Below, in pieces: positions 4,493 through 59,321 of a DNA stretch of 64,000 nt; the stretch's first letter is position 1; every line of letters starts with the position of its first letter. The notes below the pieces were generated by a model that made no database searches, was not told the DNA's origin, and saw only the letters and a program-made list of their open reading frames with translations. Where the stretch lies: contig NZ_BMMS01000019.1 in the NCBI RefSeq assembly GCF_014646055.1, positions 1 through 64,000 on the forward strand. The letters are read 5' to 3'. The DNA comes from Wenjunlia tyrosinilytica (GTDB lineage Bacteria; Actinomycetota; Actinomycetes; Streptomycetales; Streptomycetaceae). Made by a program: the position numbers and the translations under genes.

Positions 4493-5884
4493 GTGAGTCG
4501 CTCCGCACACCCCGCAGGGCCGCGCTACGCGGACGTGATCCCCGAGGGGCACTACGCCGCCCCGCCCGCCGATCTGAATGTGCTCGACCCCCGGATCTGG
4601 TCCCGGACGGTCGACCGCAACGAGCACGGGGCGGCCACCGTCGGCGGGCTGGACGTGCGCGCTCTCGCCGAGGAGTTCGGCACTCCCGCGTACATCCTCG
4701 ACGAGGACGACTTCCGGGCCCGGTGCCGCGCCTGGCACGAGGCGTTCGGTGGCGAGGCGGACGTCTTCTACGCCGGGAAGGCCTTCCTCAGCCGGGTCGT
4801 GGTCGCCTGGCTGAAGGAGGAGGGCCTCAACCTCGACGTGTGCTCCGGCGGCGAGCTCACCACGGCGCTGGCCGCCGGGATGCCCGCCGACCGGATCGCG
4901 TTCCACGGCAACAACAAGACGATGGACGAGCTGGAGCGGGCGGTCTCCGCCGGGGTCGGCCGGATCGTCGTCGACTCGTTCCAGGAGATCGTCCGGCTGG
5001 CGGACGTCGCGGCCCGGCACGGGGTGCGGCAGCGGGTCCAGATCCGGGTCACGGTCGGTGTCGAGGCGCACACGCACGAGTTCATCGCCACCGCGCACGA
5101 GGACCAGAAGTTCGGCCTCGCGCTCAGCGGCGGCCAGGCCGCCGAGGCCGTCAGGCGGGTGCTGAACCTCGACTCGCTCGAGCTCGTCGGCATCCACTCG
5201 CACATCGGGTCGCAGATCTTCGACACCTCCGGGTTCGAGGTGGCCGCGCACCGGGTCGTCGGCCTGCTGCGGCAGATCCGCGACGAGCACGGTGTGGAGC
5301 TGCCCGAGATCGACCTCGGAGGAGGCCTCGGTATCGCCTACACCTCGGGCGACGACCCGAGTGAGCCGCACGAGATCGCCAAGGCGCTCGCCGAGATCGT
5401 CACCCGCGAGTGCACGGCGGCGGGGCTGGCCGTGCCGCGCCTGTCGGTGGAGCCGGGCCGGGCCATCGTGGGCCCGACGGCGTTCACCCTCTACGAGGTG
5501 GGCACCGTCAAGCCGCTGGAGGGCCTGCGCACCTACGTCAGCGTGGACGGCGGGATGTCGGACAACATCCGTACGGCGCTGTACGACGCCGAGTACACCG
5601 TCGCGCTGGTCTCGCGCGCCTCGGACGCCGAGCCGATGCTCAGCCGGGTCGTGGGCAAGCACTGCGAGTCCGGGGACATCGTGGTCAAGGACGCGTTCCT
5701 GCCGGCGGACCTGGCCCCGGGCGACCTGCTGGCGGTCCCGGCGACCGGCGCGTACTGCCGGTCGATGGCCAGCAACTACAACCACGCGCTGCGCCCGCCG
5801 GTGGTCGCCGTCCGCGACGGCGTGGCGCGCGTGATCGTCCGACGCGAGACCGAGGAGGATCTCCTGCGTCTGGATGTTGGATGA
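4493..5884 (+). CDS. lysA: Diaminopimelate decarboxylase
   Basis: Last step of lysine synthesis: decarboxylates meso-diaminopimelate. It is a PLP fold III enzyme of 463 residues. The PLP lysine is K96 in [15 protein letters not shown] and DLGGGLG form the phosphate-binding part of the barrel, and the C-terminal HCESGD motif supplies the partner cysteine from the other subunit. GTG 4493 was chosen because GGAG at 4484-4487 is correctly spaced and the translated N-terminus suits the family; an upstream in-frame start at 4445 would overlap argS. It lies between argS and hom, and because diaminopimelate is also a peptidoglycan precursor this enzyme draws on a branch point. Confidence 0.97.
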
Positions 5885-5978
5885 CGGAAATCTCATCTCA
5901 GATCCTGGACCGGACATAGATCTGTCCGGCAGGTCAACGAGACTGGTTTCGACGAGTGCACGCGAGAAACGAGGTCGG

Positions 5979-7271
5979 ATGATGCGTACGCGTCCGCTGA
6001 AGGTGGCGCTGCTGGGCTGTGGAGTGGTCGGCTCAGAGGTGGCGCGCATCATGACGACGCACGCCGACGACCTCGCCGCGCGTGTCGGAGCTCCCGTCGA
6101 ACTCGCCGGAGTGGCCGTGCGCCGCCCGAACCGGGTCCGCGAGGGCGTTCCCGCGCACCTGATCACCACCGACGCCGTCGAGCTGGTCAAACGCGACGAC
6201 GTGGACGTGGTCGTCGAGGTGATCGGAGGGATCGAGCCCGCACGGGGCCTGATCACCACCGCCATGGAGCACGGGGCGAGCGTGGTCAGCGCGAACAAGG
6301 CGCTGCTCGCCGAGGACGGGGCCGCGCTGCACGCCGCCGCCGTCGAGCACGGGGTGGACCTCTATTACGAGGCCGCCGTCGCGGGCGCGATCCCGCTGAT
6401 CAGGCCGCTGCGCGAGTCGCTGGCCGGGGACAAGGTCAACCGGGTCCTCGGCATCGTCAACGGCACCACCAACTTCGTGCTGGACCGGATGGACTCCACC
6501 GGCGCGGGCTACTCCGACTCGCTCGACGAGGCGACCGCCCTCGGGTACGCGGAGGCGGACCCCACCGCCGACGTCGAGGGCTTCGACGCCGCCGCCAAGG
6601 CCGCGATCCTCGCCGGAATCGCCTTCCACACCCGGGTGACCGCGGCCGATGTGCACCGTGAGGGCATCACCGAGGTCACCGCCGCCGACATCGCCAGCGC
6701 CAAACGCATGGGCTGTGTGGTCAAGCTCCTCGCGATCTGCGAGCGGTCCGCCGACGGGAAGTCCGTGACCGCTCGGGTCCACCCGGCGATGATTCCGCTC
6801 AGCCATCCTCTGGCCAGCGTTCGTGAGGCGTACAACGCGGTCTTCGTCGAGGCCGACGCGGCCGGGCAGCTGATGTTCTACGGTCCGGGCGCGGGCGGCG
6901 CGCCGACCGCCAGCGCCGTCCTCGGCGACCTGGTCGCCGTGTGCCGCAACAAGCTCAACGGGGCCACCGGGCCCGGCGAGTCCGCGTACACGCGGCTTCC
7001 GGTCAGCCCGATGGGCGATGTCGTCACCCGCTACCACGTCAGCCTCGACGTGGCCGACCGGGCGGGTGTGCTCGCCCAGGTGGCGGCAGTCTTCGCCGAG
7101 CACGGCGTCTCCATCGACACCGTGCGGCAGCAGGGCAAGGACGGGGAGGCCTCGCTGGTCGTGGTCACCCATCGCGCGCCCGACGCGGCCCTGTCGGGAA
7201 CCGTCGAGGCCCTCCGGAAGCTGGAGACGGTCCGCGGCGTGGCGAGCATCATGCGTGTGGAAGGGGAGTAA
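5979..7271 (+). CDS. hom: Homoserine dehydrogenase
   Basis: Reduces aspartate semialdehyde to homoserine, the branch point to threonine and methionine. It has 430 residues. The dinucleotide-binding motif GCGVVG spans residues 13-18. The catalytic lid contains [11 protein letters not shown] and the substrate region [20 protein letters not shown]. An ACT regulatory domain from about residue 353 to the end ([17 protein letters not shown]...) implies feedback control, in this family usually by threonine. The start is ATG 5979 with ATG 5982 as near equivalent; GAGG at 5971-5974 serves either. The terminal codons contain the ribosome site GGGGAG for the next start at 7276, so translation of hom and thrC is probably coupled. 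Confidence 0.96.
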
Positions 7272-7275
7272 CCCA

Positions 7276-7320
7276 GTGAACGCTGGAACGGCGAGCCGCC
7301 GAGTCGGGGAGCGTGACCCA
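7276..7320 (+). repeat. Short form of the mini-cistron cassette ahead of thrC
   Basis: This 45-base stretch starts GTGAACGCTGGAACGGCGAG and ends CGGGGAGCGTGACC before ATG 7321. Both ends match the 92-bp repeats between atpF and atpH (22 of 28 bases in the left arm, 14 identical in the right arm); the middle 47 or so bases are absent. GTG 7276 has its own GGGGAG site inside the end of hom and is in frame with thrC, so it could add 15 residues ([15 protein letters not shown]) to ThrC. The cassette also supplies the GGGGAG at 7306-7311 that serves ATG 7321. Confidence 0.7.
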
Positions 7321-8412
7321 ATGAGCCCAGTCGCCGACCGGCCGGTACAGGCAGCCACGCACCAGTGGCGCGGCATCATCGAGGAGTACCGCGACCGGCT
7401 GCCGGTCACCGCGGACACTCCCGTCGTCACCCTCCTGGAGGGTGGCACACCGCTGGTCCCGGCGCAGCTGCTCTCCGAGCGCACGGGCTGCGACGTCTAC
7501 CTGAAGGTCGAGGGAGCCAACCCCACGGGCTCGTTCAAGGACCGCGGGATGACGATGGCCATCACCAAGGCCAAGGAGGCCGGCGCGCAGGCCGTCATCT
7601 GCGCCTCCACCGGCAATACCTCCGCCTCGGCCGCCGCCTACGCCGTCCGGGCGGGGATGGTCTGCGCCGTGCTCGTCCCGCAGGGCAAGATCGCGCTGGG
7701 CAAAATGGGCCAGGCGCTGGTCCACGGCTCGCGGATCCTCCAGGTGGACGGCAACTTCGACGACTGCCTCACCCTGGCGCGCGGCCTGTCGGAGAACTAC
7801 CCGGTGGCCCTGGTGAACTCGGTGAACCCCTCGCGCATCGAGGGGCAGAAGACGGCCGCGTTCGAGATCGTGGACGCGCTCGGCGACGCCCCGGACGTCC
7901 ATGTCCTCCCCGTGGGCAACGCGGGCAACATCACCGCGTACTGGAAGGGCTACACCGAGTACGCGGCCGACGGTGTGTCGACCCGCAACCCGCGCATGTG
8001 GGGCTTCCAGGCCTCCGGGTCCGCCCCGATCGTGCTCGGCGCGCCGGTCAAGAGCCCGCAGACGATCGCGACCGCGATCCGGATCGGCAACCCTGCCTCG
8101 TGGAAGCAGGCCGAGCTGGCCCGGGACGCGTCCGGTGGCTTCATCGACTCGGTGACCGACCGTCAGATCCTTTCCGCCTACCGGCTTCTGGCGTCCCGTG
8201 AGGGCGTCTTCGTGGAGCCTGCGTCGGCGGCGAGCGTCGCCGGGCTGCTGAAGGCGGCCGAGGAGGGCAAGGTCGACCCGGGCCAGCGGATCGTCTGCAC
8301 GGTGACCGGGAACGGGCTCAAGGACCCGGACTGGGCCGTGGCGGGCGCGCCGCAGCCGGTCGTCGTCCCCATCGACGCGGAGGCGGCGGCCAAGCAGCTC
8401 GGGCTGGTCTGA
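7321..8412 (+). CDS. thrC: Threonine synthase
   Basis: Converts O-phosphohomoserine to threonine. It is a PLP fold II enzyme of 363 residues, in the short-chain threonine synthase size class. The PLP lysine is K73 in [12 protein letters not shown]. The phosphate-binding loop is PVGNAGN and the substrate region [17 protein letters not shown] 7321 is preceded by GGGGAG at 7306-7311. The alternative GTG 7276 would add 15 residues derived from a repeat cassette and not from the enzyme fold. It follows hom after 49 bases. About 420 bases separate it from thrB, so thrB may have its own promoter. Confidence 0.96.
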
Positions 8413-21828: not shown

Positions 21829-22641
21829 GTGAGTGCTGACCCCCAGATGCTCGCCAACGAGATCGACTGCCACATCTTCGCTGATTGCGGCTTCCCCTCT
21901 CCTGGCCTCAACTCCTTCATGTTCAAGCCGATGTTCGAGGTCGGCGGCATCGAGTTCAACAAGCCGATGCTGCTGGCGCTGATCTCGACGATCGTGGTGA
22001 CCGGATTCTTCTGGGCGGCGTTCGCCAGGCCGAAGGTCGTCCCCGGCAAGCTCCAGATGGTCGGTGAGGCGGGCTACGACTTCGTCCGCCGCGGGATCGT
22101 CTACGAGACCATGGGCAAGAAGGACGGCGAGAAGTACGTCCCGCTGATGGTGTCGCTGTTCTTCTTCATCTGGTTGATGAACCTCTGGTCGATCATCCCG
22201 TTCGCCCAGTTCCCGGTGACCTCGCTCATCGCCTTCCCGGCGGGACTCGCCGCGCTGGTGTGGTTCACCTGGATGACGATCAACTTCAAGAAGCACGGCT
22301 TCGTCGGCGGCATCAAGAACCTCTGCTACATGCCGGGCCTGCCGAAGGCGATCTACCCGCTGCTGATCCCGATCGAGTTCCTCTCGAACGTGATCGTCCG
22401 CCCCTTCACGCACGCGGTCCGGCTGTTCGCCAACATGTTCGCCGGCCACCTGCTGCTCGTGATCTTCACGATCGCCAGCTGGTACCTCCTCAACGGTGTA
22501 GGCATCGCCTACGCGGGTGTGTCGTTCGTGATGGTCATCGTGATGACCCTCTTCGAGATCTTCGTCCAGGCGTTGCAGGCGTATGTGTTCGTGCTCCTGG
22601 CCTCGAGCTACATCCAGGGCGCCCTGCACGCCGACCACTGA
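21829..22641 (+). CDS. atpB: F1Fo ATP synthase subunit a
   Basis: Stator membrane subunit forming the proton half-channels. It has 270 residues with five or six membrane helices. The essential helix reads IVRPFTHAVRLFANMFAGHLLL, with the arginine that faces the c-ring glutamate. The GTG 21829 has AAGGAG at 21817-21822, giving VSADPQMLANEID; the longer frame from 21769 lacks a ribosome site. atpE follows after 78 bases. Confidence 0.96.
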   Translation: MSADPQMLANEIDCHIFADCGFPSPGLNSFMFKPMFEVGGIEFNKPMLLALISTIVVTGFFWAAFARPKVVPGKLQMVGEAGYDFVRRGIVYETMGKKDGEKYVPLMVSLFFFIWLMNLWSIIPFAQFPVTSLIAFPAGLAALVWFTWMTINFKKHGFVGGIKNLCYMPGLPKAIYPLLIPIEFLSNVIVRPFTHAVRLFANMFAGHLLLVIFTIASWYLLNGVGIAYAGVSFVMVIVMTLFEIFVQALQAYVFVLLASSYIQGALHADH

Positions 22642-22983
<342 letters not shown>

Positions 22984-23012
22984 CCAACACCTCTTAGACG
23001 AAAGGTCCAGAC

Positions 23013-23558
23013 GTGAATCTCCTGCAGATCGCTGCGGAGGAGCAGAACCCTCTGATCCCCGAGATTCCGGAGCTCGTCGTCGGCCTGCTCGCCTTCGCGA
23101 TCGTCTTCGCTCTCTTCGCCTGGAAGCTCCTGCCCAGCATCAACAAGGTGCTGGACGAGCGCCGGGCGTCGATCGAGGGCGGCATCGAGGAGGCCGAGGC
23201 TGCCAAGGCCGAGGCTCAGCGGGTGCTCGAGGAGTACCGCGAGCAGCTCGCCGACGCACGCCACGAGGCCGCGCGCCTGCGCCAGGAGGCGCAGGAGCAG
23301 GGCGCGACGCTCATCGCAGAGATGCGCGCCGAGGGCCAGCGGCAGAAGGAAGCCATCATCGAGGCCGGCCACGCTCAGCTCGAGGCCGACCGCAAGCAGG
23401 CCGCCGAGGCGCTGCGCCGGGACGTCGGCAGGATCGCCACCGATCTGGCCGGCCGTGTCGTGGGCGAGTCGCTCGAGGACCACGCCCGCCAGAGCCGTGT
23501 GATCGACCGCTTCCTCGCCGAGCTCGACGAGCGGGCCGAGGAAGGCGCTGCCCGATGA
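23013..23558 (+). CDS. atpF: F1Fo ATP synthase subunit b
   Basis: Peripheral stalk subunit linking Fo and F1. It has 181 residues with one N-terminal membrane helix (about 20-42, LVVGLLAFAIVFALFAWKLLP), then a long charged coiled coil (EEAEAAKAEAQRVLEEYREQLADARHE...). GTG 23013 is preceded by GAAAGG. Its stop TGA (23556-23558) overlaps the ATG of the first 31-codon mini-cistron, not the ATG of atpH as expected in most bacteria. Confidence 0.96.
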   Translation: MNLLQIAAEEQNPLIPEIPELVVGLLAFAIVFALFAWKLLPSINKVLDERRASIEGGIEEAEAAKAEAQRVLEEYREQLADARHEAARLRQEAQEQGATLIAEMRAEGQRQKEAIIEAGHAQLEADRKQAAEALRRDVGRIATDLAGRVVGESLEDHARQSRVIDRFLAELDERAEEGAAR

Positions 23559-23650
23559 GTGCCGGAACGGCGATCCGTCGAGCGGGCCCGCGCAGTGCCG
23601 CAGTCGTCATCGAGCTTCAGGGCTCGCGAGACGGGGAGCGTGACCGATGA
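23555..23650 (+). CDS. Mini-cistron copy 1, 31 residues, between atpF and atpH
   Basis: ATG 23555 overlaps the atpF stop as ATGA, and TGA 23648-23650 overlaps the next copy in the same way. The peptide starts MSAGTAIRRAGPRSAAVV and ends GSRDGERDR. GAGGAAGG at 23538-23545, inside atpF, is a suitable ribosome site. Close to the end of the frame GGGGAG at 23633-23638 serves the next start. It is nearly identical in DNA to copy 2 (87 of 92 positions). I know no family for it. It could be a translated coupling element and not a functional protein. Confidence 0.5.
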   Translation: MSAGTAIRRAGPRSAAVVIELQGSRDGERDR

Positions 23651-23738
23651 GTGCCGGAACGGCGATCCGTCGAGCGGGCCTGCGCAGTGCCGCAGTCGTC
23701 ATCGAGCTCGTGGGATCGCGAGACGGGGAGCGTGACCG
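23555..23738 (+). repeat. Two tandem 92-bp repeats inserted at the atpF-atpH junction
   Basis: Unit 1 covers 23555-23646 and unit 2 covers 23647-23738. They differ at five positions: one in the codon at residue 12 and four in residues 21-23. Each starts ATGAGTGCCGGAACGGCG and ends GGGGAGCGTGACCG, so each brings a start codon and a ribosome site. A shortened relative lies before thrC at 7276-7320. Confidence 0.95.
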
Positions 23739-23742
23739 ATGA
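23647..23742 (+). CDS. Mini-cistron copy 2, 31 residues, overlapping atpH
   Basis: ATG 23647 overlaps the end of copy 1, and TGA 23740-23742 overlaps the atpH ATG at 23739. The peptide is MSAGTAIRRAGLRSAAVV... ending GSRDGERDR, differing from copy 1 at residues 12 (P to L) and 22 (Q to V). GGGGAG at 23725-23730 is placed 8 bases before atpH. Two of five differences are synonymous, too few to judge selection on the peptide. Confidence 0.5.
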   Translation: MSAGTAIRRAGLRSAAVVIELVGSRDGERDR

Positions 23743-24554
23743 ATGGAGCGAGTCGGGAGGCGCTTGCCTCCGCGCGTGAGCGCCTCGACGCCCTGGCGGA
23801 CAACCGGTCCGTGGACGTCGCGAAGCTCGCCGAGGAGCTCGCCGCCGTCACCGCGCTGCTCGACCGCGAGGCGTCGCTGCGCCGGGTCCTCACGGATCCG
23901 GCACGGGAAGGGCAGGCCAAGGCCGGCCTCGTCGCCGGGCTGCTGTCCGGCCAGGTCGGTGCCGAGACGATCGACCTGCTCAGCGGCATGGTCCGCTCGC
24001 GCTGGTCGAAGCCCCGCGACCTGGCGGACGCGCTCGAGGAGCTGGCGGCCACGGCCGAGCTCGTCGTCGCCGGGCGTTCCAACGGCCTCGACGAGGTCGA
24101 GGACGAGCTGTTCCGGTTCAGCCGGATCCTTCAGTCGTCGACCGAGCTGCGGCTGGCGCTGACCGACCGCACCGCGAGCAACGCCGCCAAGGCCGAGCTC
24201 ATCGGCTCGCTGCTGGGCGGGCGGGCCAACGTGGTCACGCAGCGGCTCATCACGCGACTGGTCTCGCACCCGCGTGGCCGTAGCCTTGAGGTGGGCCTGG
24301 AGGCCTACTCCAAGCTCGCCGCCGCACGCCGCGGGCGCACGGTGGCCGTGGTCACCACCGCGGTCCCGCTCGACGCGCGGCAGAAGGCCCGCCTCGGCGA
24401 GGTCCTGGCCAGGCTGTTCGGGCGTGAGGTGCACCTGAACCTCGACGTGGACCCCGAGGTCCTCGGCGGGATCAGCGTGCGGGTCGGTGACGAGGTCGTC
24501 GACGGCTCGATCAGCAGGCGCCTCGAAGAGGCGGCGCGCCGCCTCGCCGGCTGA
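23739..24554 (+). CDS. atpH: F1Fo ATP synthase subunit delta
   Basis: Connects the b stalk to the top of the alpha/beta hexamer. It has 271 residues, longer than the about 180 of E. coli, as is normal for actinobacteria. The conserved C-terminal part is recognisable: VVTTAVPLDARQKARLGEVLARLFGREVHLNLDVDPEVLGGISVRVGDEVVDGSI. The ATG 23739 uses the ribosome site GGGGAG supplied by the second repeat. ATG 23743 is out of frame. Next is atpA after 142 bases. Confidence 0.94.
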   Translation: MNGASREALASARERLDALADNRSVDVAKLAEELAAVTALLDREASLRRVLTDPAREGQAKAGLVAGLLSGQVGAETIDLLSGMVRSRWSKPRDLADALEELAATAELVVAGRSNGLDEVEDELFRFSRILQSSTELRLALTDRTASNAAKAELIGSLLGGRANVVTQRLITRLVSHPRGRSLEVGLEAYSKLAAARRGRTVAVVTTAVPLDARQKARLGEVLARLFGREVHLNLDVDPEVLGGISVRVGDEVVDGSISRRLEEAARRLAG

Positions 24555-24696
24555 GCGAGGCCTCGTGCCGGGCACCGCCACGGTGGTCGGCCACAAGTCA
24601 AAAGCATTGATTGATGCGGCCCGAGTTGGGCCGTGCCAGATACGCGGTCGCCTGTGCCGGCGGCCCGGGCCCAACTAGGGAGAGCAGGGACACCAG

Positions 24697-26292
24697 ATGG
24701 CGGAGCTCACGATCCGGCCGGAGGAGATCCGGGACGCGCTGGAGCACTTCGTCCAGTCGTACAAGCCGGACGCGGCCTCGCGCGAGGAGGTCGGTACCGT
24801 CACCGAGGCCGGTGACGGCATCGCCAAGGTCGAGGGTCTGCCCTCGGCCATGGCCAACGAACTGCTGAAGTTCGAGGACGGCACCCTCGGCCTCGCCCTC
24901 AACCTCGAGGAGCGCGAGATCGGTGTCGTCGTCCTCGGTGAGTTCAGCGGCATCGAGGAGGGCCAGCCGGTCCAGCGGACCGGCGAGGTTCTCTCGGTCG
25001 CGGTCGGCGAGGGTTACCTGGGTCGCGTCGTCGACCCGCTGGGCAACCCGATCGACGGCCTCGGCGAGATCGAGACCTCCGGCCGCCGCGCCCTCGAACT
25101 GCAGGCCCCCTCGGTCATGCAGCGCAAGAGCGTCCACGAGCCGATGCAGACCGGCCTGAAGGCCGTCGACTCGATGACCCCGATCGGCCGTGGCCAGCGT
25201 CAGCTGATCATCGGCGACCGCCAGACCGGCAAGACCGCCCTGGCGATCGACACGATCATCAACCAGCGTGACAACTGGCATTCCGGCGACCCGAAGAAGC
25301 AGGTCCGCTGCATCTACGTCGCCATCGGCCAGAAGGGCTCCACCATCGCGTCCGTGCGTGGCGCGCTGGAGGAGGCCGGAGCGCTGGAGTACACCACGAT
25401 CGTCGCCGCCCCGGCGTCGGACCCGGCGGGCTTCAAGTACCTCGCGCCCTACACCGGCTCCGCCATCGGCCAGCACTGGATGTACGAGGGCAGGCACGTC
25501 CTCATCGTCTTCGACGACCTGTCCAAGCAGGCCGACGCCTACCGCGCCGTCTCCCTCCTGCTGCGCCGCCCGCCGGGCCGCGAGGCCTACCCGGGTGACG
25601 TCTTCTACCTGCACTCGCGTTTGCTGGAGCGCTGCGCCAAGCTCTCCGACGACATGGGCTCCGGCTCCATGACCGGTCTGCCGATCGTCGAGACCAAGGC
25701 GAACGACGTGTCGGCGTTCATCCCGACCAACGTCATCTCCATCACCGACGGCCAGTGCTTCCTGGAGTCCGACCTGTTCAACGCGGGCCAGCGCCCGGCG
25801 CTGAACGTGGGTATCTCGGTCTCCCGTGTCGGTGGCTCCGCCCAGATCAAGGCCATGAAGTCGGTCGCCGGCCGGCTGCGTGTGGACCTCGCCCAGTACC
25901 GCGAGCTCGAGGCGTTCGCCGCCTTCGGCTCCGACCTGGACGCGGCCTCCAAGGCGCAGCTCGAGCGCGGCAAGCGCATGGTGGAGCTGCTCAAGCAGGG
26001 CCAGTACGCGCCGTACCCGATCGAGGAGCAGGTCGTCTCCATCTGGGCCGGTACCACCGGTCAGCTGGACGACGTGCCGGTGAACGACATCCGCCGCTTC
26101 GAGCGGGAGTTCCTGGACTACCTGCGCCGGGAGAAGAAGGACCTGCTCACCGTCATCTCCGAGACCGGCAAGCTCCCCGACGAGACCGTCGAGGCACTGA
26201 CCGAGGCCGTCCGCACCTTCAAGCGCCAGTTCGAGACCTCGGACGGCAAGCTTCTCGGTGAGGACACGCCCCAGGTCAGCACCTCCAAGTGA
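24697..26292 (+). CDS. atpA: F1Fo ATP synthase subunit alpha
   Basis: Non-catalytic nucleotide-binding subunit of F1. It has 531 residues. Walker A GDRQTGKT is at 173-180, and the arginine finger lies in the segment [14 protein letters not shown]. The N-terminal beta barrel and C-terminal helical domain are complete. The ATG 24697 follows AGGGAGAGCAGGGACACCAG. About 15 extra residues form the acidic tail [11 protein letters not shown]. It precedes atpG by 20 bases. Confidence 0.97.
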
Positions 26293-57041: not shown

Positions 57042-57157
57042 GGAACGAGAAGGTATCCGCCGCAACCGGGGGCGACCAGGGGCGGAGCCGCTTTGTGGCA
57101 CCTCTGAGACAGACCCGGCGGAAGCCGGGCAATGAAGCCGGGCAATAATGGAAGCGC

Positions 57158-57518: not shown

Positions 57519-57695
57519 TCGCCGCCTGTCCGCTGACGTCCCTACGCGGACGTCAGCACGCGGATGTCAGCACGCGGACGTCACCCGAGGAGGACACGCC
57601 GCGGATCACACGCGGAGAACACACTGGCCGTGCGGCCCGGCAGCGGGCACCACGGCCAGGTCGTGCGGTGGAGCGTCGTGCGGTGGAGCGGGGTG

Positions 57696-59321
57696 CTACT
57701 TGACGTTGACCCCGGCCCAGGCCTTGTTCACGGCCTTGTACTCGGCGCTGGTGGAGCCGTACAGCTTCTTCGCCACCGCCAGGGTGCCGGTGCGGGCGCC
57801 GTGGTAGTCGGTGGTCGAGGTGAACTGCGTGGTCAGCGACTTGTACCAGATCAGCGCGGCCTTGGTGCGGCCGATGCCGGTCACCTTGGAGCCGTCGTAG
57901 GTCGGGCTGTTGTAGGTGTTGCCGTTGATGATCTTCTTGCCGCTGCCCTCGGCGAGCAGGTAGAAGAAGTGGTTCGCGATACCGGACGTGAAGTGCGGGT
58001 CGTCGTTACCCACACCGTCGAACCAGTAGTCGTACGAGATGCCGTCCTTGGACGGCTTGTCCATGTACCGCAGCGGCTTGCCGTTGCCGAAGATGTTGAT
58101 CTTCTCGCCGATGTAGTAGTCCGGCTTGTCGACGGTGAGGTTCTTCTTGAACTCCACCATCGTGCCGTAGATGTCCGAGGTGCCCTCGTTGAGGCCGCCG
58201 GACTCGCCGAAGTAGTTGAGGTCGGCCGTGGCGCTGGTGACACCGTGGCTGATCTCGTGGCCCGCGACGTCGAGCGAGGTCAGCGGACGCTTGTCGCCCT
58301 CACCGTCGCCGTAGGTCATGCAGAAGCACGCGTCGGACCAGAAGGCGTTGACGAAGCCCTTGCCGTAGTGGGTACGGCTGAGCGAGCCCTTGTTGTCGTT
58401 CTTGATGCCCTTACGGCCGAAGGCGCTCTTGTAGTAGTCCCACGTCGCCTCCGCGCCGAAGTGGGCGTCCACGCCGGCCGACTGGCGGCTCGTGGTCTTG
58501 CCGTTGCCCCAGATGTTGTTGGCATCCGTGAAGAGCGTGCCCTTGCCGTCGCTCTCCTTGTTCCCGAGGTCGGTGGTGTACAGACCGCCGCGGGTGTTGT
58601 CCTTGAGCTGGTACCGGGTGCCGGACTTGTGCGTGGTGATCGTCACCTTGCCGACGCGCACACCGTTGCCGCTGCCGGTCTTGATGCCCTCGAAACTGGC
58701 GATGACGGCGCCGGTCCTGGCGTCCGTCACCACGTGCAGCTCGCTGGGCGCGCCGTCGTGCTGGACACCGTCGACCACGGTCTCCCAGGCGAGGGCGGGC
58801 TTGCCGGAGGCGGCCCACACGACCTTGCGCGGGGCGGCGGCGGCGCCGACCGACTTGAGGGCCTCGTCACCCTTCTTGTGCGTCTTCAGCAGCGCCTTGG
58901 CGGTGGCGGACGCCTTCGCCTTGGCGGCGGAGGCGGCCACGGCCGGGGTGGTGCCGGCGACGGCGATCTTCGCACCGGTCGCCTTGGTGACCGACGTCGT
59001 GGCGCCGTGCTTGTCCTGGTGGACGACCAGGTCGCCCCCGAGGACGGGCAGGCCCGCGTAGGTGCGCTCGTAGCGGAGGTGGCGGCTGCCGTCCGCGTCG
59101 ACTATCGCATCCTTGACCTTGAGCTGTTCCTTGGCGCCGAGCCCGAGGCTCTTGGCCACCCCGGCGGACTCGCTGCGAGCGAGCGAGAGCGCGTCGGCCT
59201 GGCTGCGGCCGATGGGGGACTGGTTGTTGGGCGTGGCGGTGGCGGAACCGGAGAGGACTCCGGTAACGACCATCGCGGAAGCGGCGGCGACTGCCCCGAG
59301 GGCCAACTTCTTGCGCAACAT
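57696..59321 (-). CDS. Secreted M4 (thermolysin-family) neutral metalloprotease
   Basis: Zinc endopeptidase exported as a proenzyme, 541 residues. Signal peptide ends near TGVLSGSATA (about residue 30). The FTP/PepSY-like propeptide spans about 31-195 (SLGLGAKEQLKVKDAIVDADGSRHLRYERTYAGLPVLGGDLVVHQ). The mature domain has HEISH at 355-359 with catalytic E356, and GGLNEGTSD supplying the third zinc ligand. The AFWSDACFCMTYGDG region and NHFFYLLAEG are family typical. The ATG 59321 has AAGGAG very close (AAGGAGATATG). It may feed on environmental protein along with the chitinase. Confidence 0.95.
   Translation of the reverse strand: MLRKKLALGAVAAASAMVVTGVLSGSATATPNNQSPIGRSQADALSLARSESAGVAKSLGLGAKEQLKVKDAIVDADGSRHLRYERTYAGLPVLGGDLVVHQDKHGATTSVTKATGAKIAVAGTTPAVAASAAKAKASATAKALLKTHKKGDEALKSVGAAAAPRKVVWAASGKPALAWETVVDGVQHDGAPSELHVVTDARTGAVIASFEGIKTGSGNGVRVGKVTITTHKSGTRYQLKDNTRGGLYTTDLGNKESDGKGTLFTDANNIWGNGKTTSRQSAGVDAHFGAEATWDYYKSAFGRKGIKNDNKGSLSRTHYGKGFVNAFWSDACFCMTYGDGEGDKRPLTSLDVAGHEISHGVTSATADLNYFGESGGLNEGTSDIYGTMVEFKKNLTVDKPDYYIGEKINIFGNGKPLRYMDKPSKDGISYDYWFDGVGNDDPHFTSGIANHFFYLLAEGSGKKIINGNTYNSPTYDGSKVTGIGRTKAALIWYKSLTTQFTSTTDYHGARTGTLAVAKKLYGSTSAEYKAVNKAWAGVNVK

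Follow-up and report, generated by a model that had tools for sequence, protein, structure and literature searches.

Mycobacterial interspersed repetitive units (MIRUs) lie in operons, form tandem copies, measure about 40-100 bp each and occupy dozens of loci per genome. They are described as short, apparently mobile repeats of mycobacteria that insert at start codons (PMC12548453, which cites Supply et al., 1997), and one class I MIRU has been presented as a 77-nt 5' untranslated region (PMC4128351). Here, we analysed a 64,000-nt stretch of the Wenjunlia tyrosinilytica genome (contig NZ_BMMS01000019.1, positions 1-64,000; the window), in which two tandem 92-bp units, each a 31-codon mini-cistron, stand between the ATP synthase genes atpF and atpH. 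Their proposed working principle is that of MIRUs, a likeness judged by description rather than by comparison of sequences. An earlier note on this DNA, made from the sequence alone, did not know of any description of the design; in kind it is described, as MIRU open reading frames (ORFs) coupled to a gene at -4 nt are already in print (PMC12548453).

Other described systems share single traits with the units. Leader genes of Actinobacteria and other groups, Streptomyces included, are short ORFs thought to pass ribosomes to the next gene, and a role in increasing expression through reinitiation has been proposed for them (PMC4833913); unlike the units, they are presented in that source as not overlapping annotated genes, with 10-11 bp preferred, and as forming no repeat family. 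The coupled small ORFs of mycobacteria (PMC4633059) have the same RTGA joint, and some of them keep the coupling but not the sequence; according to that account they begin leaderless transcripts, whereas the atp units are repeated and coupled on both sides within an operon. The leader cistrons of synthetic bicistronic designs are described as short ORFs that deliver ribosomes, as the units would, but the units are natural, dispersed and placed within an operon. Rickettsia palindromic elements (RPEs) are, like the units, small repeats in genes that are kept readable, yet they are reported to lie in frame and to enlarge proteins (PMC10969869), whereas the atp units are separate cistrons without excess folding. 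Titles and abstracts in the open literature revealed no report of such units in Streptomyces, a weak negative since most subscription papers lay outside its scope.

Tandem units between atpF and atpH

The junction in the window consists of the following features, all on the forward (+) strand:

23013..23558, +, atpF, ATP synthase subunit b, the upstream gene, ending in ATGA (NCBIfam NF004412, 213.7 bits; Pfam PF00430)
23538..23545, +, GAGGAAGG, likely Shine-Dalgarno (SD) sequence of unit 1, within the end of atpF, 9 nt before the ATG at 23555 (sequence; duplex energy -8.4 kcal/mol)
23555..23650, +, unit 1, 31-codon mini-cistron whose start overlaps the atpF stop and whose stop overlaps the unit 2 start (sequence, ORF list, Tandem Repeats Finder)
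23633..23638, +, GGGGAG, likely SD sequence of unit 2, 8 nt before the ATG at 23647 (sequence; duplex energy -13.7 kcal/mol)
23647..23742, +, unit 2, 31-codon mini-cistron, tandem copy of unit 1, whose stop overlaps the atpH start (sequence, ORF list, Tandem Repeats Finder)
23725..23730, +, GGGGAG, likely SD sequence of atpH, supplied by unit 2 (sequence)
23739..24554, +, atpH, ATP synthase subunit delta, the downstream gene (NCBIfam NF009967, 337.4 bits)

Tandem Repeats Finder gave a repeat period of 92 bp, and the two copies are identical at 87 of 92 positions, the count given in the earlier note; the five mismatches fall at codon positions 2, 3, 1, 2 and 3. An assembly artefact is unlikely, because the two copies differ. 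The ATGA overlaps at 23555, 23647 and 23739 were read directly. The sequence and the ORF list agree that each unit opens in the previous stop and closes in the next start, and GGGGAG was found 8 nt ahead of the next start in both, so this part of the earlier description stands. The units translate into MSAGTAIRRAGPRSAAVVIELQGSRDGERDR and MSAGTAIRRAGLRSAAVVIELVGSRDGERDR, neither of which matches a Pfam family at E up to 1, in line with the remark that the peptides belong to no recognised family.

A 58-codon GTG frame (23559-23735) spans both units, beginning directly after the atpF stop and finishing 3 nt ahead of atpH; it was dropped on its codon score of -0.63. An RNA structure such as a terminator, riboswitch or hairpin element is not supported either: no Rfam family was found over 22600-24800 at E up to 1, and folding does not exceed that of shuffled sequences (three coupled units, z 0.05, 1.00 and 0.41; the thrC unit described below, z 0.60; a stretch of 301 nt, z 0.43). 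By the same measure, the units also lack the palindromic structure expected of miniature inverted-repeat transposable elements (MITEs), repetitive extragenic palindromic (REP) sequences or RPEs.

That a direct overlap is the normal state of this junction was borne out in relatives, where 96 of 117 atpF-atpH loci (some of them duplicate loci of one genome) have a 4-nt overlap, the remainder being -1 overlaps, later starts placed by the script, or units. Since direct overlap is usual and homologous units recur elsewhere, the units are beyond chance. A second class of length change was seen at this junction in some Streptomyces, namely small in-frame N-terminal extensions of AtpH (M/VSGMHGASREA and MTMHGASREA, in L072, L073, L087 and L120 and in L071, L079, L099 and L144), of length class 0.

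We searched for further units with a pattern in which the 3' end of the unit is followed by the start of atpH, without any demand on phase. Among 394 genomes of the family, 14 matched, eight with a unit at atpF-atpH and six with a match away from this junction, and among 392 genomes of the genus of G148 four carried a unit at atpF-atpH, one of them already counted. Units were thus found at this junction in 11 of 699 distinct Streptomycetaceae genomes, a lower bound because divergent units would escape the pattern: G000 (the genome of the window, with two units), G001 (of the same genus, which has two genomes in the set and belongs to the family that also includes Streptomyces), G025, G066, G114, G147, G148, G169, G456, G458 and G514. 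BLAST of the unit against the 394 family genomes (E up to 0.01) hit 112 genomes, mostly with short matches; L053 and L056 proved on reading to be true atp units, most of the others not having been inspected individually.

The 12 atp units (10-31 codons) measure 29, 32, 47, 62 (four units), 86, 89 and 92 bp (three units). All 12, over seven distinct lengths, equal 2 mod 3, the only length class in which the stop of each frame falls on the next start. The start is RTGA in all 11 unit-bearing junctions, and the end is ATGA in ten and TGATGA in G514. On an AtpF+AtpH tree of 53 chosen rows, all 11 positives included, the presence of a unit requires at least eight changes, of which well supported branches make at least five unavoidable; the number is as low in 25 of 500 shuffles. 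Sister genomes differ, G066 and G025 having a unit where G007 and G013, respectively, have none. Gains and losses look alike here, because the empty site is restored exactly when the stretch from one flanking ATGA repeat to the other is precisely lost.

Duplex energies were computed with anti-SD letters that we assumed. Before atpH they range from -9.2 to -14.5 kcal/mol at 11 unit junctions (mean -12.1, leaving out L089, where the contig is cut short, and taking for G000 the site before unit 2, which has the same letters as that before atpH), against a mean of -9.6 kcal/mol at 99 direct junctions; the site before the first unit has a mean of -8.5 kcal/mol, L089 included. What persists at atp is the phase, the start and the SD sequence, while peptide length varies threefold. 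In aligned units such as those of G025 and G458, the middle shifts to another frame and returns before the end. The codon usage of the atp units is unlike that of genes, with mean scores of -0.48 in frame 0 and -0.68 and -0.55 in the others, compared with a median of 0.75 per codon in real gene windows. The unit peptide therefore does not look selected. As frames and lengths vary while the phase and the SD end persist at atp, the unit is probably an insert, dispersed over several loci, that serves as a translational relay rather than as a peptide gene.

Related units at the ALDH and thrC sites

Searching the 11 positive genomes with patterns of the unit 3' and 5' ends revealed two further sites, both in G000. 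On contig C4 (83442-83528), units lie between two aldehyde dehydrogenase (ALDH) genes (Pfam PF00171) as two tandem copies of 56-62 bp: the first ALDH gene ends in a fused copy (..AAEPSNERSERESERDR), while the second copy stands free as a mini-cistron, MKAGAAEPSNERSEREGERDR, bounded by ATGA on either side, and no Pfam family was found for its peptide. A search for this junction in 41 genomes (40 matching) gave loci in 30, G000 and 29 others, and the unit is absent from all 29 relatives, including G001.

A pattern search of 297 genomes gave 23 places in 19 genomes, seven of them at atp (six genomes), eight at the ALDH junction (seven genomes) and eight judged unrelated. The ALDH copies number two in G000 and one each in G082, G086, G114, G123, G141 and G158. 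In these six genomes the first ALDH gene closes with the unit: two of the genes stop in the ATGA of the unit (..GEREGERDR and ..GEGELDR) with a 4-nt overlap, and the other four read the unit in another frame (e.g., ..ASEKESATNEGV) and overlap the next start by 14 nt. In extending the upstream protein, the ALDH copies come closer to RPEs. Separately, in L251, L258, L271 and L275-L278 the second ALDH is extended in frame at its N terminus by a long stretch of low complexity, at the same ALDH1-ALDH2 junction (gap 118-196 nt, frames open). This junction is tolerant of many kinds of insert.

The third site lies at the start of thrC, again on the forward strand of the window:

5874..7271, +, hom, homoserine dehydrogenase, upstream of the site (NCBIfam NF004976, 553 bits)
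7276..7320, +, related unit at the thrC start, 45 bp, with GTG at 7276, GGGGAG at 7306-7311 and a new ATG at 7321 (5' end pattern search, profile, alignment)
7321..8412, +, thrC, threonine synthase (NCBIfam TIGR00260, 318.3 bits)

In the 11-genome search, this unit has one mismatch to the 5' end pattern drawn from the atp units. Because it is in frame with thrC, it is an alternative start or an N-terminal extension rather than a separate mini-cistron. ThrC begins with MNAVVDRP.. in several relatives, and the window protein looks as though the unit had entered after the third codon. Of 20 stretches fetched, 18 were relatives in which thrC was seen, and none has a unit there; they include L245 and L247, where the hom stop was set wrongly by the script, yet the start of thrC is visible and the profile found nothing convincing. 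A loosened pattern gave three matches in the window against 0.02 expected, two of them the atp units; the count is not independent evidence, because the pattern was loosened after the thrC place had been seen, and the unadjusted test is the 5' end search. The thrC site is the weakest of the three. Two other repeat regions were noted in the window: GC-rich imperfect tandem repeats at 1853-2215 around CCCTCGCACCCCTCGCGGCGAGATGTCCGTCCACTC, with periods of 32-36 and 100 among others, and perfect or near-perfect short tandem repeats of 13-15 bp at 57121-57146 and 57544-57696.

The copies at different loci are homologous. The ALDH unit of G000 is identical to the atp unit of G025, from another genus, at 56 of 62 positions (Z 15.8; 0 of 1000 shuffles as high), the ALDH unit of G086 to the same atp unit at 49 of 53 (Z 12.0; 0 of 1000) and the thrC unit to the atp unit of G066 at 24 of 27 (Z 7.7; 0 of 1000). 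Altogether, 17 chosen pairs were compared with dinucleotide shuffles; 11 had none of 1000 shuffles as high and four had one or two, and for the ALDH units of G114 and G000 the figure was 13 of 1000. Profiles trained with the tested locus left out agree: the atp-only profile detects the ALDH unit of G000 at E 3.4e-6 and a further four matches at the ALDH site at E 0.003-0.03, and the ALDH-only profile, with results for 12 chosen sources, finds the atp unit of G025 at E 1.4e-11, that of G458 at 2e-4 and those of the window and G456 at about 1e-3.

Run over 1.74 Mb, the full profile gave nothing convincing beyond the atp, ALDH and thrC sites; the strongest match elsewhere, L289 (E 0.21), looked on inspection like the end of an ordinary gene. 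Backward control patterns gave one match against 20 real places for the 3' end and none against eight for the 5' end. Pattern matches in L171, L178-L180, L184, L186 and L199, as well as in L284, L285, L289, L290, L292, L293, L296 and L297, were on reading judged ordinary coding sequence or chance. Three sites were found in G000 by the pattern searches, a lower bound since sensitivity is limited. The atp units had no match in phage and plasmid collections, nor did the ALDH unit in the phage collection or a 21-residue peptide among plasmids; the ALDH unit gave six weak matches in the plasmid collection, of which the best (Nonomuraea), the only one inspected, was rejected.

Possible origin and role of the units

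We consider it likely that the units represent copies of a MIRU-like, short interspersed element found in Streptomycetaceae, with 29-92 bp per copy at atp. Its 3' end would bring an SD sequence and RTGA, and it would land at, just before or a few bases past the start codon of the downstream gene. In an ATGA-overlapped atpF-atpH junction, the old start codon would become that of the mini-cistron and the ATGA of the element the new downstream start. Ribosomes finishing atpF may then restart on unit 1, on unit 2 and finally on atpH, such that termination-reinitiation would be relayed across 184 bp rather than broken by a gap; the peptide would be a by-product. The tandem array would grow when a stretch bounded by identical ATGA ends is duplicated locally, and deletion exactly from one such end to the next would bring back the empty site. 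In reporter work on E. coli and Haloferax, spacings of about 20-38 nt nearly abolish reinitiation, and in three E. coli pairs a spacing of +38 nt removes or nearly removes coupling, as reported in PMC10666635; if actinomycetes behave likewise, atpH should thus be uncoupled by a bare spacer of 184 bp.

The anatomy and the comparison support this mechanism and argue for a real, recurrent, dispersed mini-cistron element. The earlier note had proposed a translational cassette of which any number of copies leaves coupling intact. This idea gains from the in-phase units at atp in 11 genomes and from two more junctions in the window genome, of which thrC is the weaker case, while preserved coupling, like translation of the units, their relay function and movement between loci, is what we infer from sequence.

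A number of observations weigh against this explanation. Three sites per genome are few for a mobile element, and no terminal inverted repeats were seen, the ends having been compared by eye only. The thrC unit is in frame with its gene and breaks the 2 mod 3 rule; it is weak under the atp-only profile (E 0.03 in 1.74 Mb) and unreported by the ALDH-only profile at E up to 5. The ALDH overlap is 14 nt instead of 4 in four genomes. Homology is also uneven: the ALDH and atp units of G114 resemble each other at chance level (Z 0.4; 365 of 1000 shuffles as high), three ALDH units appear only at E 0.8-3.3 with the atp-only profile, and with the ALDH-only profile four other atp units are weak (E 0.05-1.6) and three are unreported at E up to 5. 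The phases of the 12 atp units represent fewer than 12 independent events, because the units share ancestry, and for the same kind of reason, relatedness of the sequences, the p value of 0.0015 in the SD comparison (L089 kept in) is only indicative. Finally, the middle of the aligned units is repetitive (GAGCGAGCG), which makes the reading of compensated frameshifts depend on the alignment.

Among the alternatives, an adaptive tuner, in which unit copy number would set the delta:b subunit ratio through partial ribosome loss at each restart and would be selected for, seems unlikely. The copy number at atp does vary (0, 1 or 2), and the extra restarts that we propose, together with differing SD strength, would alter delta synthesis; but presence is patchy on the tree, close relatives do without the unit, and units also stand at unrelated operons. 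Less probable still is an event confined to this locus, in which a tandem copy of the atpH 5' end decayed and underwent a second duplication, without any link to the other loci. The earlier note had allowed that many empty sites together with no matches elsewhere would point to such a one-off duplication, and the empty sites are indeed many, but the ALDH and thrC units are matches elsewhere. The unit starts (MNAGTATRR.., MTTGTASRE..) look like the AtpH start MNGASREA by eye, without a control, the flanking ATGA repeats favour slippage, and local duplication best accounts for the second 92-bp copy. Local duplication as the sole explanation is nevertheless largely refuted by the ALDH copies, since the same sequence lies between ALDH genes here and in other genomes, with the above 56 of 62 identities across genera.

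Convergence, by which purine-rich, SD-bearing, low-complexity sequence would arise repeatedly ahead of starts in GC-rich actinomycetes and homology would be only apparent, could draw on the repetitive middle and on pairs little or no better than shuffles, such as that of G114. It is rendered improbable by the 11 of 17 pairs, the main cross-locus ones included, that no dinucleotide shuffle equals, by the recurrence of the 5' part CCGGARCGGCGA, which is not SD-like, and by the backward control patterns. We regard as most improbable of all a functional micropeptide working with ATP synthase. All 12 atp units retain an open frame, nine of the 11 genomes share a start of the type M(N/S/T)xG(T/A), most have an end of the type (G/E)E(R/C)DR, and frame 0 has the least bad mean codon score. 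Yet, the openness of the frame is weak evidence (product of shuffle probabilities 0.036), and what is conserved at the two ends is the start region and the SD region. The length ranges from 10 to 31 residues, the middle is unconserved and read in different frames, and at ALDH the same DNA gives another peptide in four genomes; codon usage far from that of genes and the lack of a Pfam family also speak against a selected product.

Comparison with MIRUs and implications

A dispersed MIRU-like element remains our preferred explanation. The size is similar, with two copies of 92 bp at atp and copies of 62 and 56 bp at ALDH in G000, some atp copies elsewhere being shorter. At all three loci, atp, ALDH and thrC, the units sit at start codons and relatives have empty sites; in G000 the second copy at ALDH has the stop-start overlap on both sides, which the thrC copy lacks. 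The units differ from MIRUs in their Streptomycetaceae host, in their GGGGAG end, in lying in frame at thrC and in often forming the end of the upstream gene at ALDH, and in place of the many loci per genome occupied by MIRUs, three sites were found. It is conceivable, though we hold it somewhat short of probable, that they form an independent start-codon-targeting family in Streptomycetaceae, unrelated to MIRUs, which moves between operons and genera and survives through its own ribosome site and the restored stop-start overlap. If so, it would be a mobile element with a translational joint as its sole cargo, and coupling itself would make core junctions (atp, hom-thrC and the ALDH pair) safe landing sites.

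If the MIRU-like explanation is true, insertion into operons without breaking translation would extend beyond mycobacteria. Within the family, one core operon junction comes in natural variants of length and copy number (29-184 bp, all in phase), and close relatives with empty sites make both ribosome hand-over and the spread of short elements testable in actinomycetes. The units may also serve as natural parts for coupled expression in Streptomyces.
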